DNA of 64,000 bases from Marchantia polymorpha subsp. ruderalis (Eukaryota; Streptophyta; Marchantiopsida; Marchantiales; Marchantiaceae), in assembly GCA_037833965.1 (NCBI GenBank), contig AP031356.1:766501-830500 (forward strand). The letters run 5' to 3'. The position numbers and the translations under genes are program-made. A model generated the notes under the pieces. The model saw only the letters and a list, made by a program, of their open reading frames with translations. It had not been told where the DNA came from and searched no databases. This document shows positions 19,238 to 34,606 of this stretch, piece after piece. The number at the start of each line of letters is the position of its first letter. Positions within the stretch are counted from its first letter, which is position 1.

Positions 19238-21376
19238 ATGGCGCCCAAAAAGAGTGAGAAGATGAGGAAATTGGTTTCCTTGAAGGTGCCGTATGAGGAA
19301 TTGAGACCCTTCAGACACGAGTTGAGGGAGCTGCGGCTAGAATTCCTTCTATGGAATTGGAATTGCGTCTCAGCGAGTATCTGGAAGGAGGTTATGGATA
19401 AGAGTGCGACCGTGGGCGAGGAGCTCCGCGTTAATCCCATGCTGTGGACCGTTGAGCATTGGACGAAAGTCATGGGACCGTGTGCGGGAAGCAACAGATA
19501 CCTTCTGTTTGACAAGAATAGCGTAGGACTTACGCGCGTCAAGGAATTCTCCTACGGGCCTCCCTTCGAAACGGGAAGACAAGTAACGAATGGATGGAAG
19601 ACTGTCGATTATAAGGATCCGAAGAGAAGGGCGATCGCGTTGAAGATTATGCACATCTTACGGCCAGCGCGCACGACTTATGTGACGGCATGGCAGGTGG
19701 GATTCTTCGAACGCATTTTGAAGTAACAGCGCGTACATTGGGCAAGAATCTTTTACGACCTTGTCTGGGTGAATGGGTCTGGTCGATGAATGGGATCGAT
19801 GACCAACCATCTTACCCCCTTTTTGATACATTTCTTTCGAGGAATGGGATTGCTTACGAGGGAGGAGGAAAAGCGATTTCCGAGGGAGCGGGAGAGCTTT
19901 ACAGAGGAATCCAGTGAAGGGACCGAAGACGAGAACCCATCTCCCGCAATTCTGACACACACTACTGCTCAAGGACCAGTGCAGGTGGACGTGGTTCCAA
20001 GGCATGAGCAACCAGAGAGACGAATGGCAAAGAAGAGGAAGGTCGTAAGCGATGATGAGGAGGAATTGGCCCACACAGTAAGAAGGGTGGATATGGAAGT
20101 GAGTGGAGCCAGACAGCACAGAGCTCGCGCAAGACCAAAGAAGAGGGCGAAACGGAGGATGGTGCCAGTTGAGGTGTCAGATAGCAGTGTGGAGAAGACG
20201 GTGGCACCACTTGTGAACACATCTGAAGTCGCAAATAGCGAGGTAATGCTATCTGTGGAGTTAGGGGTACCTTCGGAGGCGTCAATTGAAGACCCGGCAG
20301 ATATACCGGCAGAACCTTTGAATGAGGGAACAAAATTGGTAAGTCCAATTTCTTTGTCTTCGGAGCGGACACAGTCTGCGCAAGGCGAAGGGACACCCCA
20401 GATGAAGATGAACGAGGACCTGGAGAAGGAGTTTACTTTGAGCGAGGAGATTTTGGAACAGGTTGTCGCAAGAGTAGGAGGAACGGTGGTGGAAGCCGAG
20501 GACACTACACTGCCGACGTCTCCTGTGGAAGAGGTGAGACCCGAAGAAGGAAAGAAGACTTCGGGCGAAGATGTGAAGACATTGGAAGTTACATTTCTTG
20601 AATTCTTGCAGGACAGTGTAGAACCATTGTTGAAGTACTTGGACGGGAAGAGAAAGAAGTATGTTGTATCGAAGGAGCCGGGATTCTACGTTCAGATGAT
20701 CAGGAACAGAACGAAGCTCAAGAGAGCAATTGCAATAAAGAGGGAGTGGGATTCCGCGACTGCATTGGCACGGGAGCGAGCTGCAACCTTGTCAGCCGAG
20801 TGCGCAGCAGTGAAGGCGACATTGTGGGAGCGAGAAGCTCAGCTTCGGGAGAAGGAAACTAAGTGTGAAGTGCTGCAGCTGAATCTAGAGAAGGAATCGG
20901 GACGTTGTGCAGAGTTGGAAGAGACCTGCGGAGGACTTCGTACCTCTAATGAGAATGCCCAGAAGGTAACAGTGGATTTGATGTCAAGGGTGGAGAAATC
21001 CAGGGAAGCTTACGATGCAGCAGTCAAAAGGGCGGAGCGATTGATCGCGACAACGGAGAAACAAGAGAAGAAGCATATTGAAGACCTTGCTACATTGGAA
21101 GTCCGAAGAGCCGAAGAAGCTCGCATCGCCGAAGAACTTTGGGGCAAGCTCGCAGGTACGAAGACGACGGAGGAAAATCTTCGTAGGTAAATTTCAGAGT
21201 TTGAGTCAAAGTGTGAAACTGAATTCCGACGTGCGGAGGAGCTATCAGCAAGTCTGTCGGCGGGGAATCTGAAGCATGAAGATGAGTTGAAGGATTGGGC
21301 CAAGAAATTGGCAGATTGCGAGTCGGCCAAGTCTTCAAGGCTTACTCGAAGTAACAAAACTTCACGTTGGCATTAA
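19238..21376 (+). pseudogene. Coiled-coil element ORF, copy A, in one frame with three stops
   Basis: The protein family has no function known to me; it is repeated three times here. The frame has three parts. An N-terminal domain of about 160 residues carries WNWNC, LWTVEHW and a VDYKDPKRR block. A middle region is acidic and then basic, with a nuclear-localisation-like KKRAKRR cluster. The C-terminal part is a long Glu/Ala/Arg/Lys coiled coil. The frame is interrupted by in-frame stops at 19724, 19787 and 21188, yet there is no frameshift over 2.1 kb: sequence between and beyond the stops still aligns with copies B and C. The ATG at 19238 was chosen because copy B has a matching start. The N-terminal domain recalls plant transposon/mobile-domain proteins, but that is only an impression. 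Copy A is probably a recently inactivated mobile element. Confidence 0.6.
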
Positions 21377-21780
21377 GGGGGAAAAATCCCGAAGGAGTAC
21401 AAATAGGAACAAGCACCCGAAGGTGTAAGCCCGAACTGCTCAAGTATCTAACTAGTCACTAGCTCTGAACCTCAACAATCACTCCAAAGGTGAAAGTCCG
21501 AACTGCTCAAGTATCTAACCAGTACACTAGCTCCGAACATTCGGCCAAAGGCCTTCAGCTACAAAATGCGGTAACTTCGTCAAGCTGTAGCTCCTCTTGC
21601 GCGGTGACAGAACTAAGTACACAAACGCGCAGAAATGAGTTCCTGAACTGCACTTCCGAAACTGGAAAAATCCCAAGGCAAGACGCCTTGAACTACTTTA
21701 TACCTTCTAAGTCCTAACTAACACACTACACTACACTACATGTCATCTGCTATGTATCCTGCGCGACGGACTGCCGCGCA
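21377..21780. other. Junction between copies A and B, with a short direct repeat
   Basis: Copies A (plus) and B (minus) meet tail to tail here, so this sequence probably holds the 3' end of one or both. Two copies of a block containing CCGAACTGCTCAAGTATCTA (about 21430-21470 and 21498-21540) stand about 70 bp apart. No gene was recognised. Confidence 0.45.
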
Positions 21781-22819
21781 CTAACTCCCTACCCTGCCAG
21801 TCTTCTGCTCGACTGCGCAGTTCCAACCGCCGCAACACCGCAGAAACCTCTGTCTCGAGGGTGACCATGGTGTCCCGCGACTTCGACAGAAACGAAGCTC
21901 TAACTGGCTCCGACTGTCACTTGACAACAAACCCGCCGCACGAAGCTCTAACTCGCGCAGTGTGAGTTTCTTCTGCGCCGCCACTTCCAAGTGGGCGTAA
22001 CCTCTGAGACAGTGGTTGACTCGCATCGCCAACTCTTCCTTCGTGCGATCTGCCTCCCGCCGGCGATCGTCTTCAACTACAACCAACTGCAATTCGGCCT
22101 CCGCACGCTGCGCTCTCAATTCTTCGCACTCGGCTTGCAGCCTGCGGATTAATTCTTCATCCGCCTGCCGTGCGAGCTGACACTACTCTAACAACCGTGT
22201 CTATCGCACGAGCTCCTCTGACAAAATTTGATTCTGAGCCTGCTCAGAATCCAGCTCCTCTGCGAGCTTCGCCTTTGCCTTAGCGAACTCTCCCAGCTTC
22301 TCGTACTTGTCGAGGGCTTTGTACACCTTCTAAGTGAGATTGAGGTGGCCCCACATGCAATCATACTTCTCCCGCACATCCTTAAGTTCCCGATCCACAC
22401 GGGCCAACAACTTGCTGGTGTGGACTTTAGTGCGGGTTCGCCTACGCACTAATTCGACGTAGGACCCAGGCTAGCGGGGGTCCGCGTACTTCTCCACCTT
22501 GCAATCAAGGTACCTCAACAGAGGTACCACTTGCTCGCAGAGCGCCGCCGTCGGCGTGCCTGCCACTGATTGCTCCTCCTCCTCACTCGATTCTGCTCCT
22601 GACGCTGATTCTGTCGATCCTCCTTCTTCGTCATCCTCCGAATTAAGGATTTCGGTCGCCACTGAATTCGCCGGCGACTGTCGTGAGTGTGGCTTCGAAA
22701 TGTCTGCGTCATCTGCCACCACTGTTGCCGATGCAGCCTCGCTGCTCCTTGCCAGAATGTCCAAGGCGGTGGGAGAATGAGGTTGTGCCAAATTCACATC
22801 GCCCGCCCGTCCGGCTTCT

Positions 22820-23450
22820 ACTAACTCCTCATCGCCGAAGGCGTTCACCGCCGAAGGCGATCGTGCGGAAGGTGTCTGCGCGGATTGCAATTGTGCATCG
22901 CACACACGTATTTCCTCCTGCCGACAGTCAATCCGCTTCTCCATTAGGTCCCGCTCCTTAGATAGGTCCTGCGCCGGAGATGCGTCTTGCCTATGCGTAG
23001 GCGCTATTGTCGACGGTGCTTCCGCCGAAGGCAGTTGAGCCGAAGGCGGCTCGCCTGATGTCCCTTGGCCCGAAGGCCCTTCCGCCGAAGGCGCACCTTT
23101 CGGTGGACTTCCCGCCGAGGGCGCGTTCTCCGCCGGCTCCCTACTTGTAACTCGGTGGCTCGAAGGCCCTTGCGCTGAAGGCGCATTTTCCGGTGGTCTT
23201 ACTGCCGAAGTACCTTGCCCCGAAGGCCCTTGAGCCGAAGGCGGATCTTTCGTTGGCTCCTTTCCTTTCTGGCGCTGCACCGGAGACGAGTCTCGCCTAT
23301 GCGTAGGCGTTCTCCTATCCGCAGGGATTCGCCTATCCGTAGGCGGCACACTCATCCATGCTGCGTGTTGTCGCTCATGACCTGAAGGTCGTCTCACTTC
23401 CGCCGAGGGCGTTCGTGCCTTCGGCGTAGGGAGGTCTGGTGACCCTTCTG
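22820..23450. repeat. GCCGAAGGC palindrome field, part 1 (inside copy B)
   Basis: I count about six exact GCCGAAGGC units, with many near matches such as CCCGAAGGCCC, GCCGAGGGCG and GCGTAGGCG, at irregular spacing. They are within the Pro/Ser/Ala-rich part of the copy B ORF. The 9-mer is an inverted repeat (GCC/GGC) around a GAA loop. Confidence 0.75.
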
Positions 23451-23990
23451 CTGTCCGTGCATTCCTGTCCTCCTCCGAGGATGGGTTTTCCTTCTCTCCG
23501 GCGGCCCGCGCCGTCTCCGAGCTACTTGCAGCCAATACAAGCCGGCGCGCTTTCTGCTTCGGCCGATTGCAAATTTCTTCTAGTGGCCGCTTCCGTTTGA
23601 GAGCCGTCGAGTCTCGATGTGGCTCTTTATCTGGCTCTTATCTCCATCTCCGCTTCCGCGGCACTCGTGCTGCGGATGCGTCTCTCCCCGCATCCTGTTG
23701 AGCTGGTGGCGTTGAGGTCAGAGTGTCCTCCGCGTCAGAGTCGACCTCGTTATCCCGCACATACCTCCCGGGATTATCGAGTGACAACAGCAGATACTGA
23801 ATACGCTCGGTCGCGGTTAAGCAACACATCGACCGATAAAAGTTTATCAAGAAGGGGGAGAGATGATTGATGGTTCCTCCCCTCTCCTCAAACGCATGCT
23901 GCCGCGTTACCCTATGCAAGATACGCGAGAAGTGAACCGGAGCTCCGGCCAATGTGAGCTCCACAAAAGACACTTGCCAAGAAGTGATGT

Positions 23991-24071
23991 ACGTTGTTCG
24001 GTGCGGCAGCAAGAGTTGCAGAAGTGCCATCGCTACGTTTTTGCGGAAGCGATCCTTGTAGTCACGGGTCC
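23991..24071. repeat. Left copy of the 81-87 bp duplication flanking the chromovirus
   Basis: This copy of host sequence (copy B coding DNA) ends exactly where the left LTR begins. It matches 29918-29998, which begins right after the right LTR, with about two mismatches. Six further bases (TGTACC) are shared by host and LTR start, so the true length could be up to 87 bp. Confidence 0.75.
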
Positions 24072-24293
24072 TGTACCATCTTTAGTTAGTTAGAACTAAA
24101 GTAGAGTTTACTCTGAATATTGATGTAGATACTTTAGTGTGCACTAGTCATAGCTGCCACGTCAGCGATCCGCACACTTGGTAGGTACAGAGTGGATGTG
24201 TTAGTTGACAGTGCCACGTCAGCAATCCGTGTGCTTGTAGGTAAGGATTGAGTGTGTTAGTTAGTGTGTTAGTTGGGTGCGCCACGTCAGCGA
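24072..24293 (+). repeat. Left LTR of the chromovirus, truncated
   Basis: This is homologous to the first about 225 bp of the right LTR (29499-29725) and includes three of its four GCCACGTCA blocks. It begins TGTACC where the right LTR begins TGTAACC. Homology stops after GCCACGTCAGCGACC. The TATA-containing half and the primer-binding site are absent. Confidence 0.85.
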
Positions 24294-24442
24294 CCTTGCT
24301 CTTTCCTTGAGTGTGGATTACCCCTCATGGAATAGCAAGTGAGTGATGATGGAGTGTAGTCTTGAGAGTGTATAGAGGCTGGCAGAGGTCATTCATCTGC
24401 ATGTAGAGAGAGGTGGAAGGGGAAAATTGTGTTTTTGCAGAT

Positions 24443-24874
24443 ATGGACGGGATTGATAGGAATCCAGTACCGCACTGGCCAATTCCTAACCTATTCGATA
24501 TTCACCTTCGTTGCATGGAGAAACATCATTTTCGGATGTACCTTGTGGCTTGTTGGGGTACAGATTTTATGACTAGAGTGATGGAGTCAAGAGTGCCACT
24601 GTTCTTCCAATAGTTACTTATGGAGAGACTTGGGATTGTACTATATACATTCTATACTGATTGTTTCATGGATTTGAATCGCGAACCACCTGTCCCGGTT
24701 CGATTCAGCACTTATGTAGAGATTAGAACAGTATATAGACAGAAAAGGATATGGAGAGATTTTCTTGTGAGGAATTATGGAGAGGAGTACTATAGAGCTG
24801 TGATAGAGTCACCTGCACCTTTTGTGACTCCTTTGTTGAGAGGTCACATAGTGATTATACTCACTTTGTATTAG
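24443..24874 (+). pseudogene. Extra ORF between left LTR and gag, with a duplicated motif
   Basis: One frame runs from the ATG at 24443 to a stop at 24872-24874, with a single internal TAG at 24611-24613. Each half carries the same pattern: a Phe/Ile-rich segment, a basic Tyr/Phe cluster (FRMYLVACWG in the first, IWRDFLVRNYG in the second), then VMESRVPLFF or VIESPAPFVT. It therefore looks like a tandem duplication of a domain of about 45 residues. It ends 17 bp before the gag ATG and is in a different frame. I do not know this domain. It could be captured host sequence or an element-specific accessory ORF. Confidence 0.45.
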
Positions 24875-24891
24875 AGGGAGTGTGAGAAAGC

Positions 24892-26054
24892 ATGGGAACA
24901 TCAATTGATATGGGTGAGGTTCTTAATGCAATCATGGCGGAGATGAAGGAGTTGAGAAAAGCGATAGTAGATGGGCATACCAAACAGCAAGCCATGGAAG
25001 ATAAAATCTTCGCATTAGAGAGTGAGAAAGTAGAGAGAGAGAGAGTTGGAGAGATGGAAGTTGAACCTCAAGTTCAAGCTTCCCAAGTTCAGCCAGAACC
25101 AACTCCTATTGATGCAGCAGAGGCAAATAAGAGACGTCTTCAAGAGATTGAAGATCAAGCAAATCTTTTGCTTCGAATGGGAAAATCCTGTAAGGTGGAA
25201 GCTTACAAAGGGAGTAGAGCAATGGGAGTGTTAGAGGGATGGATTATGAGGATGAATATTCATTTATCCCATTTTCATATTTCTGATTATATTGCAGGAA
25301 TGTTCATGAGATCTTATCTTACGGATAAGGCTCTCACATGGTACACAACATGGGAGAGAATGCTTTCAAAACGAGGTGCTACCATTTCGTGGAGTGGAAT
25401 GCAGGAAGGACTTCTGCAAAATTTTCAAGCGGTGGATTCTCTTCAAACTGCAAGAATGAAGTTGTGGGATCTGAAGCAAAAAGGAGGTATTCATGAGTAC
25501 ATTGAAGAATTTCGTGATCTTCAAGTATCTATCATGAATATGAGTGGAGCTGAAGCCTTGGACGTGTTCAAACGAGGCTGAAAGATCGAATTCGAAAGGA
25601 AGTGATGGTAAGCAATCCATCTACTGTGAATGAAGCAATCGCAATTGCTCAACGAATTTCGGGTGCTTTTGGTGTCACACACGGTGAACCAGTGAGCAAT
25701 TTTAGAGATCCATCTGGTTCAACACAGATGGAGTTGGGAAACCTGCGACGTAGAGAAGGTTTTGCACCAACAAGAGTACTACCACCAAGATTTGGAGGTG
25801 AGATTAGGCGACCAGGAGTTCCAAATTTGCAAGAAGGTTATGCAAATAATGGAATGGTTCGAGGAGGAACTAGAGTTCGTGACAATCGTCAATGCTATGC
25901 ATGTGGACGAATGGGTCACATAGCCAAGTTTTGTCGAGTTCGACCGACACAACAAGGAGGACGGCCCATGCAGCGACGACCGTTCAACAATATGGAGGGG
26001 ATAGAGTACGAAGAGGTGGAGGAAGCACTTTCGGGAAACAAAGATCACCAGTAA
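24892..26054 (+). pseudogene. Chromovirus Gag with CCHC zinc knuckle
   Basis: Gag forms the particle that packages the element's RNA. The first frame (24892-25581) has a charged N-terminal helix region, then the capsid-like segment with LTWYTTWERM and MKLWDLKQKGG. A single-base loss near 25578 shifts the frame. The second part (to 26054) continues directly with RIRKEV and ends with a CCHC knuckle, [14 protein letters not shown], near 25892-25935, which binds RNA. The last codons contain the in-phase slippery sequence at 26033. The stop at 26052 lies inside the proposed pseudoknot. The region between zinc knuckle and stop overlaps the open pol frame by about 160 bp. Confidence 0.8.
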
Positions 26055-26102
26055 TCTTGCCTCGCGGCCTTACTGGTTCCACAAAGCAAAGAAAAGGCGA
26101 GG
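26033..26102 (+). promoter_or_regulatory. Probable -1 programmed ribosomal frameshift signal between gag and pol
   Basis: The heptamer GGGAAAC (26033-26039) lies in the exact phase needed in the gag frame (G GGA AAC). After a 7-nt spacer, ACCAGTAA (26047-26054) pairs perfectly with TTACTGGT (26070-26077). CCTCGC (26060-26065) inside that loop pairs with GCGAGG (26097-26102) downstream. This is the layout of an H-type pseudoknot: stem 1 of 8 bp, loop 1 of 5 nt, stem 2 of 6 bp, loop 3 of 19 nt. A -1 slip moves ribosomes from the zinc-knuckle frame into the protease frame. Confidence 0.65.
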
Positions 26103-29100
26103 TTGGAAGAAGGCAATGGTTGGGAGCTCATGGAAGGAGTAAGAAGCAAGCTCAACTCATTGTCACTAATGGTTTCATGGAAGTACACAAGGTGAGAGTT
26201 TTAATTGATCCTGGAGCAACTGAGAATTTTCTATCAATGAGTGTTGCTATGAAGTTAGGTTTGATGTTGATGAAGGACGTGAGTGAAGAAGTTGAATTGC
26301 CAAACGGGCAAACTGAAGTGATAGAAACACTACCACCGAGTGTAGAATTATCCATAGGTAGATACAAGGAGAGCATTGAATGGAGAGTAATTCGTTTAGC
26401 TCGATATGATGTCATCCTTGGAATGCCATGGATGGAACAATATAATCCGAAGGTAGATTGGAGAAGGAAAGTGATTACAAGTAGTGGATGGAAGATCTAT
26501 GGAGATAGAATTAGATCTCAGAATAGGAATTTACCCCTCTTTGTGATGGGTACAACATCCATTTCTAGAGATGATGTATGTTTCCTTGGACTTATAAGAG
26601 ATATTGGGTCCACGGACAAACCTTACATCCCGGAGTCCTTGAATGACATTTTTATGGAGTATAAAGATGTTTTTCCAGATGATCTTCCTGCAGGATTACC
26701 ACCAAAGAGTCGAGTAGATCACAAGATTGAGGTGATACCTGGAAGTACACCAACTTGCAAAGCTCCATATCGTTTGGCTCCAAACGAATTGGAAGAATGC
26801 AAAGCTCAAGTGGAGGAGATGTTGAGCAAGGGATTCATTCAACCAAGTGTTTCACCTTATGGAGCTCCAGTACTCTTTGTGAAAAAGAATGATGGATCCA
26901 TGAGACTATGTATCGATTATCGCGGGTTGAATCAGCAAACGGTGAAAAACAAATATCCATTACCTCGTATGGATGATTTGTTTGATCAACTTCAAGGAGC
27001 GAAGTACTTCACCAAGCTAGATTTGAGAAGCGGCTAGAATCAAATTCGAATTGCAGATGAAGATGTTCACAAGACAGCTTTTCGTACTAGGTATGGACAC
27101 TTTGAGTATCTGGTGATGCCTTTTGGTCTCACTAATGCACCAGCTACATTCATGGGATTGATGAACGATATCTTTCGCCCTTATCTAGATAAATCTGTCA
27201 TTGTTTTTCTAGATGATATATTGGTGTATAGCAAAACTTTGAGTGATCATAGAAGTCATTTACGAGAGGTACTTCGAGTTTTAAGAGACAATCAATTGTA
27301 TGTCAAAGCTTCAAAATGTGAATTTGGCAAGTCAGAAGTAGATTACTTGGGTCATAGAGTTACAGCTACAGGAATCCAAGTGATGAGTGAGAAGATAGAT
27401 GCCATTCAGAAATGGATAGCACCTGAGGATCAAACTCAATTGAAGAGTTTTCTAGGGCTCACTGGATTCTATCGTAGATTTGTGAAAGGTTTTGCTCGAC
27501 TAGCTCAGACCTTGACTTCCATGTTAGGGAAAGGTCAAAAGTGGAGATGGGGAACAACTCAAGAGTTAGCTTTTCAAGCATTGAAAGATGCTTTGTTACA
27601 CACACCTATTCTCAAGTGGTATGATCCTAACCGTTCTATCAAGTTGGCCACTGACGCATCAGGTACAACAGTAGGTGGCATACTTCAACAAAAATGGAAG
27701 GATGGATGGCATCCAGTTGCTTTCTATTCTCGAAAGTTGGTGGCGGCGGAACAAAATTATCACACGACAGAACGGGAGGAGTTAGCCATCGTGTTGGCAA
27801 CCAAACATTGGAAGCATTACTTGGTGATAAGGAGTTTGTGGTGGAGACTGATCATAAACCCTTGGTTTATTTGGAAACTCAGAAGGATCTGTCCAAACGA
27901 CAAATTCGATGGGCAGAGTGACGTCAACGCTTCAACATGAAGATTGTGTACGTGGAGGGAAAAAAACAACTTGCAGATGCTCTCACACGCATGCCTTGTT
28001 TGAATCATGTTGCAGAAGTGAAAATTTAGGCGGATTGGTGGAGCAAGATGTCACAAGCCACAAAGGAGGATGAAGAGATTACTCGGGCACTACAAACTGG
28101 AAAGGCAGAGAAATCTCGAGGTTTGACGTTTTACAATCAGCGTATATGGATTCCACAAGATCACGATTTGCGCACAATGATTTTGGCTGAAAGTCATGAT
28201 ACAGCCATTGCAGGTCATGTGGGAGTGGAGAAAACCGTGGAGAGTATACAACGAGTGTACTATTGGCCCAAAATACGTGAGGATGTGGAGTCTTATGTTC
28301 GAAGTTGTGTTGCTTGTCAACAAAACAAGGCAAGTAATAAAAAACCAGCGGGTTTATTACAGCCTCTTCCTATTCCTGAATAGCGGTGGGAACATGTCAC
28401 CATGGATCTTGTATGTGAGTTACCAAGGACTTCGTTAGGACATGATTCAGTGGTGGTTTTTGTGGACAAGTTGAGCAAGATGATTCATATCAGGCAAACC
28501 ACAAAAACAGTAACAGCTCCACAACTAGCTCAATTGTATCTAGATGCAGTTTTTGTGAATCATGGCTTAAGCAAAGTGTTAATCACGGATAGAGGTACTC
28601 ACTTCACTAGTTTATTTTGGAAAACTTTGTTTCGTTTTTTCAAAACAAAACTAGCAATGTCAACGGCCTATCACCCTCAAACTGATGGACAAACTGAGAG
28701 GGCAAATAGAACCATAGAGGATATGCTACGGGCATTCACATTAGAAGAGCAAGAAGAGTGGGACAACCTTTTTCCACTTGTGGAATTTGCTTATAACAAT
28801 TTTGTTAATGCATCCACAAAAGTGTCTCCATTTTTTCTTATGTATGGAGCTCATCCTATAACTCCTTCAAGTTTGATGAGACTTCCCAAAGGAGAGGAGT
28901 TTTCGACCAAAGTTGCAGCAGTCAACGAATTCGTGGAGCATATTCACCGAGGACTACATCAGGCCAAGGAGAAGTTGGTGATAGCTCAAAATCGGCAAAA
29001 GCAGCATGCCGATGCTCATCGTAGAGAAGTGATTTTTGAGGTTGGAGATCATGTTTGGTTATCTACAACGAATTTGTCTCTTGTAGGAACACCAAAGTTA

Positions 29101-29484
29101 AACCCTAGGTTCATTGGTCCATTTTTGGTTTTGAAGCGTGTTGGTGAAGTGTCATACAAGTTGGAACTTCCGTCACATATGAAAATACATCCAGTATTTC
29201 ATGTGTCACGATTGCGAAAACATGTACCACGACCAAAACAATTCACCAACCAACCAGCACCACCTCCTCTTCCAACCTTGATAGCAGATCATGAGGAGTT
29301 TGAGGTAGAAAAGATACTCAAGAAACGTATTCGAAGTCATAAATATCCCAAAGTAGAGTATTTGATTCAATGGAAAGGCTATCCATCGTATGAATCAACT
29401 TGGGAACCAGCTAAAAATTTAGCAAATGCACCTTTGATAGTTCAGGAGTTTGGACGTATGTGCAACGAGGACGTTGCATCTTAA
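26040..29484 (+). pseudogene. Chromovirus Pol: protease, RT, RNase H, integrase, chromodomain
   Basis: The aspartic protease motif DPGATENF is near 26207. The reverse transcriptase spans about 26660-27250, with [16 protein letters not shown] (first catalytic Asp) and FLDDILVYS (catalytic pair). RNase H follows ([12 protein letters not shown] near 27650, then a TDHKPL block). The integrase zinc domain (GHVGVEKTV, CVACQQNK) ends near 28330. The catalytic core carries Asp in MDLV, Asp in ITDRGTHFTS and Glu in TDGQTERANR. A chromodomain (VEYLIQWKGYPSYESTWEP) ends the frame near 29430. Stops at 27035, 27919, 28027 and 28381 and a frameshift near 27825 inactivate it. All catalytic residues are still readable, so decay is recent on the protein scale. 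The adjoining polypurine tract marks the pol end. Confidence 0.88.
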
Positions 29485-29498
29485 AAGGAGGGAGATTT
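29483..29498 (+). promoter_or_regulatory. Polypurine tract of the chromovirus
   Basis: A purine-rich run, AAAAGGAGGGAGATT, directly precedes the TGTAAC start of the right LTR. Such tracts prime plus-strand DNA synthesis in LTR elements. Confidence 0.8.
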
Positions 29499-29917
29499 GT
29501 AACCATCTTTAGTTAGTTAGAACTAAAGTAGAGGTTACTCTGAATATTGATGTAGATACTTTAGTGTGCACTAGTCATAGCTGCCACGTCAGCGATCCGC
29601 GCACTTGGTAGGTACATAGTGGATGTGTTAGTTGACAGTGCCACGTCAGCAATCCGTGTGCTTGTAGGTAAGGATTGAATGTGTTAGTTAGTGTGTTAGT
29701 TGGGTGCGCCACGTCAGCGATCCCTGTGCTTGTTAGGGTTATCCGCCACGTCATCCATCCACTAGGAGTGAGATGGATGGTGGGGATTAGATCTTATCAC
29801 CTTGTACTTGTTGGTGAGAGCTATATAAGGGAGTGTAGAACCATTGTTGGTATCTTTCATCTTCAGAGTTTACGTTTCTATCTTCGAGTGAACTTCTCTC
29901 TAAACCCTAGTGTTACA
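29499..29917 (+). repeat. Right LTR of the chromovirus (419 bp) with promoter
   Basis: The LTR starts TGTAACC and ends TTACA, fitting the TG...CA rule. It carries a TATA box (CTATATAAGG, 29821-29830). Four GCCACGTCA cores sit upstream at 29583, 29640, 29708 and 29745. CCACGTCA is the reverse of TGACGTGG, a site that plant bZIP factors bind. The first half is shared with the truncated left LTR. Confidence 0.9.
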
Positions 29918-29998
29918 ACGTTGTTCGGTGCGGCTGCAAGAGTTGCAGAAGTGCCATCGCTACGTTTCTGCGGAAGCGATCCTTGTAGTCACGGGTCC
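29918..29998. repeat. Right copy of the 81-87 bp duplication flanking the chromovirus
   Basis: This begins with the base after the LTR end (ACGTTGTTCGGTGCGG) and matches 23991-24071 with about two substitutions. It is coding DNA of element copy B on the minus strand. Confidence 0.75.
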
Positions 29999-30611
29999 TG
30001 TACCCGTTCTTGTTGGACTTCTCTCTCTTGAACAAGTCCACGAAGGAGACGTCTTCCGCCTTCGTCACCTTGACGCTCTCACTATCAAATAAAAGGAACC
30101 CGTCCTCGCCTGCACATCTCCCCAGCGCTTGTCCCCAATCTTGAACAGTCCAACGATCTACGTGCAGTCGGAATCCGCGCGTAGGTTGGTGTCTCTCCCT
30201 TTGCCATTCGCGCACCATGTCCTGGCACACGTAATTCCATCCCCACAGCAGGAAATCGAGTTTTACTACAAACAGTCGGTACTGAAAAGCACGCAACCCA
30301 ATCTGCGGAAGCTTGAGCGGAATCATCCGCAGCTGAGTGGACTTCGACATCGCGTTCTTGAAATTTGATTTCGTGAACCTTCCACCGCTACCTTCAAGCT
30401 TCTTGCTCACAACTTCTATTCTCCTGCAAACTCTAATCTCTCTCGATTCCAACTGTCGCGCACTCAATTCTCCCTCTGTCACCGTGTGAGTCTCTGCAAG
30501 TTGGTGTATGGAATTTCTTTCGGCTAGAAGGTGGACGCGCGCAGCTCGCACAAGAAGTTGAAATCGCAAATTCAAGAATGAAGTGTCCGTTCTCCGCTCG
30601 CAGGATGTCAT
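29918..30611 (-). pseudogene. Coiled-coil element ORF, copy B, N-terminal part
   Basis: Read right to left, an ATG at 30611 opens the frame. A second ATG at 30350 (MSKSTQLRM) aligns with the start of copy A and may be the family start. The domain that follows keeps the copy A landmarks: LDFLLWGWNYVC (copy A has LEFLLWNWNCVS), VDRWTVQDW (copy A LWTVEHW), a DSESVKVTKAEDVSF block and TRDYKDRFRR (copy A VDYKDPKRR). The frame ends where the chromovirus begins, and the rest of the ORF lies at 21781-24071. The N-terminal frame is open, so copy B was probably intact when the chromovirus landed, apart from the stops in its C-terminal part. Confidence 0.55.
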
Positions 30612-30619
30612 GGTCAGCA

Positions 30620-31765
30620 CTTGGTCGTGAGTGTCGACTCACTTGATGGCTGCGCCGGCTTGGAGGTGTAACGGCCCTCCTCTCGCACGCGCGGCTTCAT
30701 GCTCCGCCGTCGCGCGCACTCGCACGCTCGAAATTTCAATTTGAGCTCCGCCATCGTACTTCGCCGTGGCCATGATCGCGCAGCGCCGAAGGCGTGTTTC
30801 TCGCCGACGCGCTACTCGCATTCGCACTCCCACTCGCATCGATCCCGCACCGCCGAAGGCGTTCCTCCGCACGCTCCGCCGAAGACGGATTTCCCGGCGG
30901 ACTTCCCGACGGCTCCGAACTCCATCCGCATGTGCGTAGGCGCTGACCGCCAGCGCCGAAGATGTCCGTCGGCGTAGGTGCATCGCCGTAGGCGATGACC
31001 GCGGTCAAAGGGTTTCGTCCCGTCTGTCAATCTCTCTCGTCTCTTCGCAGTCGCTCTCGTCTCCGGGGTCCCGTCCTGCCGAGGGCACACCTGTCCGTTC
31101 TGCCGTAGGCGTTGAGCCAAAGGCGGACCGTACGGGTTCGCTACCCCGTAGGTACTTACCTAATCTTGATGCGCTGGCGCCGTAGGCGCCGTACGAGCTT
31201 CACCCCGGAGGGCGAACTTCTAGGGCCGAAGGTGAATATTCCGCCGATGGCGAAGTGCCTACACGCAGGCGAATTTCTTTCGCCGAAGGCGGATTTCCGG
31301 CGGACTTCCCGCCGACGACGAACTCCTTCCGCCTATGCGTAGGCGTTCGTCTCCGCATCTTCCGTTAGTCACAACTCCTTGAGTCCTTATCCGTTCCAGG
31401 CGTTCTAGGGCTCGTTAGAACGAGCGCGTCAAGCTCTTTCCAACAAGGCCCTGAGCAAGTCAAGGAGTTGTGAATTGCATAAGCTCTGAGGGATTCCCCT
31501 AGCGCCAAAGGTGTACCACCGAAGGCGGATTATGCGCCTTGCGCCGAAGGAGAACTCCTTCAGAATCGATCGTTCAGGTCGGGCGCCTGTTCCGGACATT
31601 GCGCCCAACTTCTGGATTCTACGAGATCATGCGAGATCCGCGATTATCCATTTTCACTCTATTTAAATGTACCGATCACCATTTACACGGCTGCTGCGGT
31701 ACTGTTTTCCAAAATTGTTTTAAATTCCGCACAAAAGCAAAAAGTGGGTTACCACACACGTCGAC
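30620..31765 (-). repeat. Proximal 5' module of element copy B
   Basis: On the minus strand this runs from GGTAACCCAC (31744-31753 region) to the start of the copy B ORF. It has the same landmark series as the distal module: GTAACCCACTTTT, a TTTGGAAAACAGTACCGC block, an AGGGAT(T/C)-containing block, and GGCCGTTACA near 30669. It is GC-rich and packed with the GCCGAAGGC palindrome and variants. It probably includes the promoter and 5' leader of copy B. Confidence 0.55.
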
Positions 31766-32800
31766 AGTCTGCGCGAATTCTCCGCACTCTGTCCCCAATC
31801 TTCTTGCGCACACTGAGCTGCTGCACACTCTCCTGCAACAGATCTCCAATTCCCTGCTGCAAGGTCTACGCTCGAGCGAAATCAAAATCAAAATTGCAAG
31901 AATGAGACGTTTGCCTTCGGCGATCAAGATTTCACCGTTCGACACTTGGAAGTGGGGGTCGACCCACTTGATTGCAACGCCGGCGTGGAGATGTAACGGC
32001 CTCCTTCGCACGCGTGACTTCACGCTCCGCCGTTGTGCGAACTTCCACGACTGAAAATTGAATTTGATTCTACCGTCATCCGTCAACTTAGCCTTGCTCG
32101 CGCATCGCCAAAGGCGTGGCGGCAAAGGACTTTGTCCCTGGCCGGTTGCCGATTTACTCTAAGTGTATCGCCGAAGTCGTACGGCCGAAGGCGTCTGTCT
32201 TCCGCCGAAGGCATAGCGCCAAATGCATTGACCGAAGTCAATGCGATTTGTCATTTTTGATGTTCTTTCTTGTCTTGCAGAAGGCGCTCTTGCCACAAGT
32301 GCTCCTTTTTGCCAAAGGCGTTGACCTAATATCAATGCGCTGGCGCCAAAGGCGTTCAGGCGAAGGAGTACACCGCCATAGTCGTATCGCCGAAGGAACT
32401 CTTCTGCCGAAGGCACTCCATATCAATAACTTCCGACACTCATAACTCAGTGATCCCTCATTTGTTCTAAGATTTCTTGGTCTTATTGAAACAAGCGTGT
32501 TGAGCTCTTCTTAACAAGACCCTAACCAAGTCAAGGCATTACGAATTGAGAAAGTTATGAGGGATTCACTCTTCCACCAAAGGCGTACTGCCGAAGGCGT
32601 CTACACCCGAAGTCGTATCGCCGAAGGCGAGTGACTGGCGACAAATTCGCTTTCCGTTTACAAAGGTGCAGATGTCCCAGGCTTCGTACGTCCTCACCAA
32701 AAGCTCTTCTGCATGAGCCTCAGCCGAAGGCGCTTTCTCCTGCTTGCGCCGAAGACCCCTTAACAAGAAAGCTTTTGCCGAAGGCGCAAGAGGCGCTCCC
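30780..32800. repeat. GCCGAAGGC palindrome field, part 2 (upstream of copy B)
   Basis: I count about ten exact GCCGAAGGC units and more than twenty one-mismatch variants (GCCGTAGGC, GCCAAAGGC, GCCGAAGTC, GCCGAAGAC) at irregular spacing. Unlike part 1 they are not in a long ORF. Both strands read as potential 3-5 bp hairpins around a three-base loop. Confidence 0.75.
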
Positions 32801-33005
32801 CTTCAGTAGGAACCATCCGTTCGGGCCATGGCGCCTGTCCCCGACATTGCGCCCAACTCAATGATTCTCCCGGATTCTCCGTGACCCGCGATCATCCATT
32901 TTTACTCTATTTTAGTGTACCAATTACTATTTACAGTTGCTGCAGCGGTACTGTTTTCCAAAAATTTTAAATTCCGCGCAAAAACCAAAAGTGGGTTACC
33001 ACAAG
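31766..33005 (-). repeat. Distal 5' module of element copy B, truncated and tandem
   Basis: This second, diverged instance of the module lies directly upstream. Matching landmarks are offset by about 1.25-1.33 kb: GTGGGTTACC at 32991 versus 31744, and TAACGGCC at 31994 versus 30669. It ends in a short leader/N-terminal segment and then gives way to the proximal module. The arrangement mirrors that upstream of copy A (18270-19237). Confidence 0.55.
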
Positions 33006-33026
33006 ATAGTAGGAATTTGGCAATCA

Positions 33027-34606
33027 AGAACTCGAGCTAGGCCAAAGAAGATGGCGAGTCGCGGGTTGGTGGTGACCGAATCTTCAAATAGCAGTGTGGA
33101 GAAGACAATCGTGGCAGCCATTGCGACAGCCAGAAACACTTTTACCTTTGCCTGCCAACACAACAAGTGGCGGCAGGAGGACCTTCGGCGCTATTAGTTG
33201 AAGTTCCAACAGATGTAGCAGTGGAACCTTCGGAGGAGAGAACAGAGACAACTAGTCCGAGTTTTCTGTCTGTGGAGCAGACGCGGTCTATGAGGAGTGA
33301 AGACCTCAGCCGAAGGTTAGTGAAGGAGCTCATGTTGAGTGAGGCAATTTTGGAGCAGATCATTGCAAAGGTTGGTGGGACGATAGAGGACATCCTGGAG
33401 GTTCCAGAGCCACCACCATCTGAGGAGGAAGTAAGATCCGAGGTTGCGATGAAGACTTCGGAGGAAGTGCCGAAGGCGTTGGAGATTGCTTTCCCTGATT
33501 ACTTGTAGGATAGCGTAGTACATTTATTGAAGTATTTAGACACAAAGTGTGAAAAGTATACTATGAGGAGGGAGTCAGGATCTTATGTTGAGCTGATCAG
33601 GAATAGAACGAAGCTCAAGAGAGCTGTGGCAGTGAAGAGAAAGTGGGATTCTGCAACTGCGATGGCGAAGGAGCGAGCTGCAAGCTTGGCAGCCGAGTGC
33701 GCAACGGAGAAGGCAACATTACAGGAACAAGAAAACCGATTTCATGCAAAGGAGATGGAGTGCGAAGTGCTGCGATCGAACTTAGTGAAGGAGTCTGATC
33801 ATTGTGCAGAGTTAGAGCAGGTCTGTAGCAGTCTTCGTACCACTAATGAGAATGCACAGAAGTTGACTGTGGACTTATGCAGAAGATTGGAGAAGTCCAA
33901 GGAAAGCGTACGAGGCGACAGTGAAACGTGCGGAGAGACTGATTACAACCGCAGGAAAACGAAAGTAGATGCATGCCGACGAGTTAGCTAAGGCAGAAGA
34001 ACAAAGAGCCGAAGAAGCAAAGATCGCCGAAGATCTTCGGGTACAGATTGCTGCGGCGAAGAAGAGAGAAGAAGAACTTTGCAGTAAGGTTGCAGAGCTT
34101 GCGAATGATCGTGACAAGGAATTCAAGCGCGCGGAGGAGCTTACGACAAGTCTGGCGAAGGAATTCTGGAAGCACGAAGGAGAATTGACGGATTGGGCCA
34201 AGAACTTGGCGGATTGCGAGTCGGCAAGATCTTCGGAGGTCGAATGTAGATTAAAGGTTGAATTGGAACGGCGACGGTTACATGATCGGTTGGGGAAGGC
34301 CGCCATGAGATTGGAAGAGTCGCAGAGGAGAATGGAACAGACAGAGACGGCATACCGCTAGTTGCGGGACGATACGACCGACGAATTGAGATTGCGATTT
34401 GAGAAGTGCCTGCGGGGGTTCGCTTTGTGGGGATTGCAATCTGTTAAGTGGTTGAAGCTAGATTCGCTGGAGCGGTGTTTGATGAGTGCGAAGACCAGTG
34501 GATCCGTATGGCACAAGCAAATAGTAGAGTTAGTTAATTCTTTTTTCTCAAGGATTGGTAGATGCACGAGAGAATGTAGAGTTAGAGATACTAAACGTTT
34601 TGCGTA
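33027..34606 (+). pseudogene. Coiled-coil element ORF, copy C, 5'-truncated
   Basis: Similarity to copy A begins in its middle region (ARPKKMASRG; copy A has ARPKKRAKRR) and runs to the end of the coiled coil. It includes LSEAILEQIIAKVGGT, LLKYLDTKCEKY and the IRNRTKLKRA block shared almost word for word with copy A. The N-terminal domain is missing, and the break lies next to the distal module of copy B. Damage consists of a frameshift near 33.17 kb, a TAG at 33506-33508, a one-base insertion near 33910 with a nearby stop, and a TAG at 34359-34361. Two of the TAG codons stand where Gln is expected. The C-terminal end (to 34606) supplies the part that copy A lacks. Confidence 0.6.

Follow-up and report, generated by a model that had tools for sequence, protein, structure and literature searches.

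Gag and pol overlap in a Ty3/gypsy chromovirus of Marchantia polymorpha subsp. ruderalis, and the overlap probably carries a real −1 ribosomal frameshift signal, in which slippage on the heptamer G_GGA_AAC is likely aided by a downstream pseudoknot. Judged from sequence, we put the probability of this reading at roughly 0.78. The gag stop codon follows the heptamer and pol lies in the −1 frame, so production of the enzymes likely needs a one-base backward slip. As proposed, the tRNAs on GGA and AAC would re-pair to GGG and AAA in tandem while the ribosome is held by a structure 7 nt downstream of the heptamer; a fraction of ribosomes would thereby shift back one base to yield a Gag–Pol fusion at a set ratio to Gag, and the ribosomes that do not shift would terminate at the gag TAA. 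We infer the slippage, its efficiency, and the identity of the stimulator as a pseudoknot rather than an extended stem-loop. The signal is most likely of a known −1 type, one that is unusual for a plant chromovirus.

Based on Pfam domain order and LTRs, the element spans approximately positions 24072-29917 of the window, the 64,000-nucleotide stretch of DNA that was analysed. Its domains run in the order gag, RVP_2, RVT_1, RT_RNaseH, Integrase_H2C2, rve, SH3_Tf2-1 and Chromo, where the chromodomain has an E-value of 5e-16, the rve match is below its cut-off and a Ty3_capsid match falls slightly under its own. The window copy thus has the gag, the PR–RT–RH–INT order and the C-terminal chromodomain of a chromovirus; LTRs, a target duplication and a primer site were present in all four of the sibling copies examined. 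The parts of the window copy are as follows.

24072-24293, + strand: 5′ LTR remnant, its 3′ part absent (97.8% match to 29498-29720)
24892-25581, + strand: N-terminal part of gag (Retrotrans_gag), the frame broken thereafter (ORF and Pfam)
25602-26054, + strand: C-terminal part of gag with a CCHC zinc knuckle, ending in TAA at 26052-26054 (ORF and Pfam)
25892-27037, + strand: first part of pol (protease, start of RT) in the −1 frame, with a premature stop at 27035-27037 (ORF and Pfam)
27113-27940, + strand: RT and RNase H part of pol (ORF and Pfam)
28048-29484, + strand: integrase (H2C2; rve) and chromodomain part of pol, in a frame that differs from that of RT, with a stop at 28381-28383
29498-29917, + strand: 3′ LTR (TG...CA), its end placed from the 420-bp LTRs of siblings

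This copy is dead: gag is split between two frames, RT and the integrase part each contain a stop, the RNase H frame is broken, and the 5′ LTR is truncated. In three translated siblings, gag is a single frame of 387 aa from the ATG. On either side of the window copy, 87 bp of flanking DNA is duplicated (23991-24077 and 29918-30004, 97.7% identity). This is far longer than the target duplication in the four siblings examined, 5 bp in each, and perhaps reflects a later rearrangement.

An earlier note on this DNA had described GGGAAAC in exact gag phase near the gag end, followed by a 7-nt spacer, an 8-bp stem and a second stem of 6 bp. Each of these parts was recovered where it had been described, with the heptamer in the 0-frame of the gag C-terminal frame. 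They are listed here with the 5′ limit of the pol frame and a further heptamer inside gag.

25736-25742, + strand: second in-phase GGGAAAC, inside gag (sibling equivalent L014:1096)
26009-26011, + strand: CGA in the window copy; TGA, a stop of the pol frame, in 36 of 37 sibling loci
26033-26039, + strand: slippery heptamer G_GGA_AAC in gag phase (34 of 38 loci, window copy included)
26040-26046, + strand: spacer, 7 nt
26047-26054, + strand: 5′ arm of stem 1, ACCAGTAA, which holds the gag stop codon
26060-26065, + strand: 5′ arm of stem 2, CCTCGC
26070-26077, + strand: 3′ arm of stem 1, TTACTGGT
26078-26096, + strand: A-rich loop, which would cross stem 1
26097-26102, + strand: 3′ arm of stem 2, GCGAGG

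Stem 1 consists of eight Watson–Crick pairs (26047-26054 with 26070-26077) and stem 2 of six pairs, or seven if the G–U pair 26059/26103 is counted, with four unpaired nucleotides between the two stems. The rule on which the earlier note had relied, an X_XXY_YYZ heptamer with a structure typically 5–9 nt downstream, is indeed described for eukaryotic viruses in PMC3542737.

The pol frame was placed by the same note at −1 relative to gag, with an overlap of about 160 bp. Its position in the −1 frame, overlapping gag, was borne out for the window copy and the family; the length was not: of the 38 loci read, the window copy and L034 alone overlap by about 160 bp. A pol-frame stop (the TGA equivalent to 26009-26011) lies 24 nt upstream of the heptamer in 36 of 37 sibling loci and fixes the 5′ limit of the overlap, so that in the family it measures 43 nt, running from 21 nt upstream of the heptamer to the gag TAA, which is itself part of the 5′ arm of stem 1. 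Among the loci that bear the heptamer, the pol frame opens 21 nt before it in 32 of 34. The overlap contains an in-phase X_XXY_YYZ heptamer in 34 of 38 loci and in 48 of 48 copies with an intact pol, and in each of the three translated siblings it holds one canonical heptamer only.

To compare copies, the genome (241 Mb, nine contigs) was searched by DNA, protease family and gag. Of 644 candidates from the DNA search, the best 40 were scored, and all 40 (the window's own copy included) were free of any net indel over the 401 bases of 25800-26200, at 97–100%. For the protease family, the best 150 of 475 candidates were scored, and an open pol frame of 1157 codons, the maximum in this set, was present in 63 of the 150. 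For gag, where the best 124 of 913 candidates were scored with a tool that reads through stops inside a match, 94 of the 124 hits had a frame of 389 codons (nine of the 94 with an inner stop) and the longest was 444. No fused gag–pol frame, expected at about 1540 codons, was seen among the best 124 of 913 gag hits or the best 150 of 475 pol hits, and none of these scored hits had gag and pol in the one frame of a single-ORF chromovirus. A fused ancestor was accordingly rejected as a candidate over these two sets and the best 40 of 644 DNA candidates.

Thirty-eight loci (L001-L038, of which L001 is the window copy), decayed copies included, were then read across the junction. The heptamer was found in 34, stem 1 in 29, stem 2 in 32 and all three in 26, leaving a heptamer or stem lesion in 12 of 38. 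In addition, 40 of the 63 intact-pol copies were fetched, selected by their 1157-codon pol frame; in these, the heptamer and stem 2 were present in all 40, stem 1 in 39, and the gag stop lay in the same place in all 40. Because the copies were selected on that frame, the pol-frame stop 24 nt before the heptamer is present in 40 of 40 by construction; the heptamer, the stems and the gag stop are not implied by the selection. Eight more intact-pol copies fall within the 38-locus set (heptamer 8, stem 1 7, stem 2 8). Pooled, 48 of the 63 intact-pol copies were read, with the heptamer in 48/48, stem 1 in 46/48 (lesions in L100 and L033) and stem 2 in 48/48. The −1 offset, heptamer and stems are therefore kept in siblings, as the earlier note had anticipated for a true signal. 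It had named two marks of a simple mutation, sibling copies in which gag and pol share a frame and siblings lacking the heptamer and stems; neither turned up in the copies scored. With no fused sibling among those scored, and with the signal kept in the intact-pol copies, the alternative that it had left standing, a chance frameshift mutation of the window copy, is dismissed; sibling copies with the same −1 arrangement rule out such an accident in a single copy.

These copies are young. Thirty-two of the 40 fetched intact-pol copies are identical over 160 nt, and in all four intact-pol copies examined for their ends the LTRs are identical over approximately 420 bp, 5-bp target duplications are present, TGGTATCAGAGC follows the LTR (which we take to be a Met-type primer site) and a purine-rich stretch precedes the 3′ LTR. 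The identical LTRs indicate that the split-frame arrangement transposed recently, and it is the split-frame form that recently multiplied. Since the copies are very young, their sameness reflects recency and not purifying selection, and since siblings are near-identical and star-like, covariation within the family is not informative.

For an estimate of chance, in-phase canonical heptamers were counted at 4 of 385 positions in gag, 0 of 655 in the pol part and 0 of 1042 in a piece of the fused family described below. At the gag rate, an in-phase heptamer would occur in the overlap (12 slots) by chance in about 12% of cases. In sibling L014, the −1 frame closes 15 nt after the second GGGAAAC and no pseudoknot lies downstream, so this heptamer serves as an internal control; of the four heptamers in L014 gag, the one at the junction alone has both a −1 frame open for more than 75 nt and a pseudoknot. 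The permissive scan used for this control ranks by summed stem length and was applied only for the negative at the other three heptamers; at the real site it returns another pairing (stem 1 of 5, stem 2 of 6, spacer of 9) in place of the 8 + 6 arrangement. A pseudoknot with stem 1 of at least 8, stem 2 of at least 6 and a spacer of 5–9 nt arose in 2 of 20,000 dinucleotide shuffles, and stem 1 alone in 64 of 20,000. In native sequence, the geometry was found at 23 of 14,000 positions (window 20000-34000), of which the signal accounts for five, and the remaining 18 belong to three other places. The pseudoknot is unlikely to have arisen by chance, whereas for the heptamer alone the chance is not small.

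Beyond the family, contig searches for the DNA of relatives found none (viral contigs with P0001, P0002, P0005 and alignment A2; genome contigs with P0005). At the protein level, relatives of the gag were found in M. polymorpha subsp. ruderalis, Riccia sorocarpa and Calypogeia fissa, and the nearest named pol proteins include several from Riccia. P0005 is a separate gag of 322 aa, approximately 46% identical, that ends ...EENEENL. The gag of the Marchantia family ends ...SGNEDHQ, and the Riccia gag in P0133 reads ...RENEDHQ before the model jumps, its true stop lying outside the model. The Asn five codons from the end of the family gag has a counterpart at that distance in P0005, and in Riccia it precedes the same four residues as in the family; Asn-Glu near the gag end is kept in all three. 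The preceding residue, which would occupy the P-site, is Gly only in the family's own gag; it is Glu in Riccia (REN-EDHQ) and P0005 (EEN-EENL), so the canonical G_GGA_AAC is not kept there. G_GAA_AAC would fit the residues of both, and a non-canonical GGA at the XXX position is tolerated elsewhere, according to PMC3542737.

The three listed R. sorocarpa models with gag and pol domains (P0131, P0132 and P0133) all jump the junction. P0131 leaves gag inside the zinc knuckle and P0132 before it, both entering the pol linker at PRNF[TA]G, and P0133 passes from NEDHQ into mid-pol. These jumps look like gene-finder introns laid over a frame change, and models that skip the same junction suggest an old gag/pol split. 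A gag domain was present in 5 of 120 listed related proteins (P0131-P0133, P0166 and P0188). The others lack one, which may mean that the wider group often has pol in a frame of its own, although some of these proteins are fragments or come from incomplete models. In a comparison of the family linker with that of Riccia, made post hoc after the alignment had been seen, 10 of 13 element codons matched, compared with 20 of 49 other codons (p = 0.02), an excess that is only suggestive. The Riccia residues could encode both stems under some codon choice, which is compatible with the signal and no evidence for it.

As for the structure that would stimulate slippage, the fold proposed by the earlier note fared unevenly. 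The arms of a pseudoknot are present, 7 nt from the heptamer and so within the 5–9 nt range, and the pseudoknot is likely the folded structure; the minimum free energy (MFE) fold of the single strand, on the other hand, is a competing nested stem-loop (z = −0.22 against shuffles in the window copy). Summed stacks come to about −13.3 for stem 1 and −13.5 for stem 2; being stacks only, before loop costs, they cannot be ranked against the nested fold. It could be that slippage is real and is stimulated by an extended nested stem-loop approximately 8 nt downstream of the heptamer, the MFE fold of that RNA in L014 (−17.6 kcal/mol). This we regard as unlikely, given that the nested fold is no more stable than those of shuffled sequences (z = −0.50) and that the pseudoknot geometry is rare among shuffles.

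Routes to Pol without slippage appear much less probable. Splicing of minority transcripts, with an intron bridging the −1 offset as described for Ogre elements, would fuse Pol to Gag; 123 GT..AG pairs of 60–400 nt would join the frames in L014, and the Riccia gene models span the junction with apparent predicted introns. Spliced RNA could be copied back, yet no fused copy was found among the best 124 gag and best 150 pol hits, and each of the three Riccia models exits gag at a point of its own, which can happen when a gene finder bridges a frameshift. Splicing, which also leaves the heptamer and a rare pseudoknot at the right spacing unexplained, is therefore considered very unlikely. Hardly more credit, and if anything less, is given to separate translation of Pol, with ribosomes either re-initiating past the gag stop or entering internally, in which case heptamer and stems would be coincidental. 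Some retroelements do express pol without fusion, and here the gag stop and the start of pol are close together. Nevertheless, pol has no AUG in its frame until 144 nt beyond the start of the heptamer and 122 nt past the gag stop codon, behind three out-of-frame AUGs and only ten residues ahead of the Asp of the protease motif, and a pseudoknot of such size is expected by chance at only the 2 in 20,000 given above. Least probable of all is that the −1 offset began as a mutation and became fixed in a master copy, recently amplified, that spreads with Pol borrowed from another element. Near-identical copies and open frames may indeed reflect youth alone, but no fused family member was found among scored copies, P0005 ends gag at the matching place despite its divergence, and the Riccia models skip the junction, from which the split looks older than the recent burst.

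GGGAAAC is also the heptamer of the −1 sites in SRV-1 and beet western yellows virus. With retroviral, coronaviral and poleroviral −1 signals in general, the liverwort junction shares an in-phase X_XXY_YYZ, a spacer of 5–9 nt, a putative downstream stem-loop or pseudoknot, and a predicted −1 extension of the upstream product; it differs in that the element is an integrated Ty3 retrotransposon, four unpaired nucleotides separate the stems, and slippage is predicted. In a 2016 review (PMC5009743), G_GGA_AAC is ranked with the heptamers at which mammalian ribosomes shift most, and a 2003 survey is cited in which pol was at −1 in 28 of 51 animal elements, many with classical heptamers. The gag/pol offset is thus shared with animal and fungal LTR elements that have pol at −1, whereas the host here is a plant. 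With the plant chromoviruses (Tekay, Reina, CRM and Galadriel) the element shares the PR–RT–RH–INT–chromodomain order, TG..CA LTRs, the 5-bp target duplication and a primer site presumably of Met type. Its split frames set it apart from the beet chromoviruses (PMC3605345) and four Selaginella Ty3 elements (PMC3350952), each described with one gag–pol ORF, and most plant groups are given as having one ORF and some two in PMC6317226. According to PMC5009743, which names no −1 case among plants, only two plant types with split frames were known in 2003, both with pol at +1. In Sireviruses, which are also plant LTR elements, gag and pol likewise differ in frame and a stem is conserved, but pol is at +1 (PMC5009743) and the elements belong to Copia and not gypsy (PMC3414828). 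Among the titles and opening lines of abstracts that the literature searches listed, none described a plant −1 site.

Two other Ty3-like families were read in the same genome. The second family is represented by the following element.

L117:293-4999 (G000:C6:10773400-10778400): L117 element, with further junctions in L118-L137

It has a 945-codon ORF with gag, CCHC and protease (the last below its cut-off), then an in-frame TAG after this gag–PR ORF, followed by an RT and RNase H frame. L117 and all 20 of the other junctions read carry TAG-CAA-CTA, matching the UAG-CAR-YYA readthrough context given in PMC3542737, and the family is likely to express gag–pol by stop readthrough in a tobamovirus-type context. 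The third family (L048-L068) carries gag–pol as one 1590-codon ORF in most of the copies listed; it shows weak gag and clear RT similarity to the −1 family, from which it differs in having one ORF and in a best RT stretch that is only about 30% identical. We suggest, tentatively and at somewhat under even odds, that the element holds the first −1 gag–pol switch of any plant chromovirus, that this switch is conserved across liverworts, and that fused, −1 slip and UAG-CAA-CUA readthrough families of Ty3-like elements occur together in its genome.

Retroelements need far more Gag than Pol, and plant gypsy elements are mostly described as single-ORF, which raises the question of how they keep this ratio. 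If true, a liverwort family with many copies, recent activity and a −1 site would offer a plant system in which the Gag/Pol ratio is set at translation, and the fused-ORF and UAG-type families in the same genome allow direct comparison. Caution is also due in annotation, as the Riccia models of such elements bypass the junction with seemingly artificial introns.

Two further observations concern the retroelements of this genome. In the leader of L109, 614 nt separate the LTR end from the gag ATG and contain 15 AUGs before that of gag, with small upstream ORFs of up to 84 codons; ribosomes may have to reach gag by leaky scanning, shunting or internal entry. Retroelement copies were also found at regular spacings of approximately 5.5, 5.6, 5.8 and 10.7 kb, a pattern suggestive of tandem arrays, at the following loci.

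G000:C6:8217608/8223060
G000:C3:30250534-30267783
G000:C8:10764065-10775709
G000:C6:10774136-10806418
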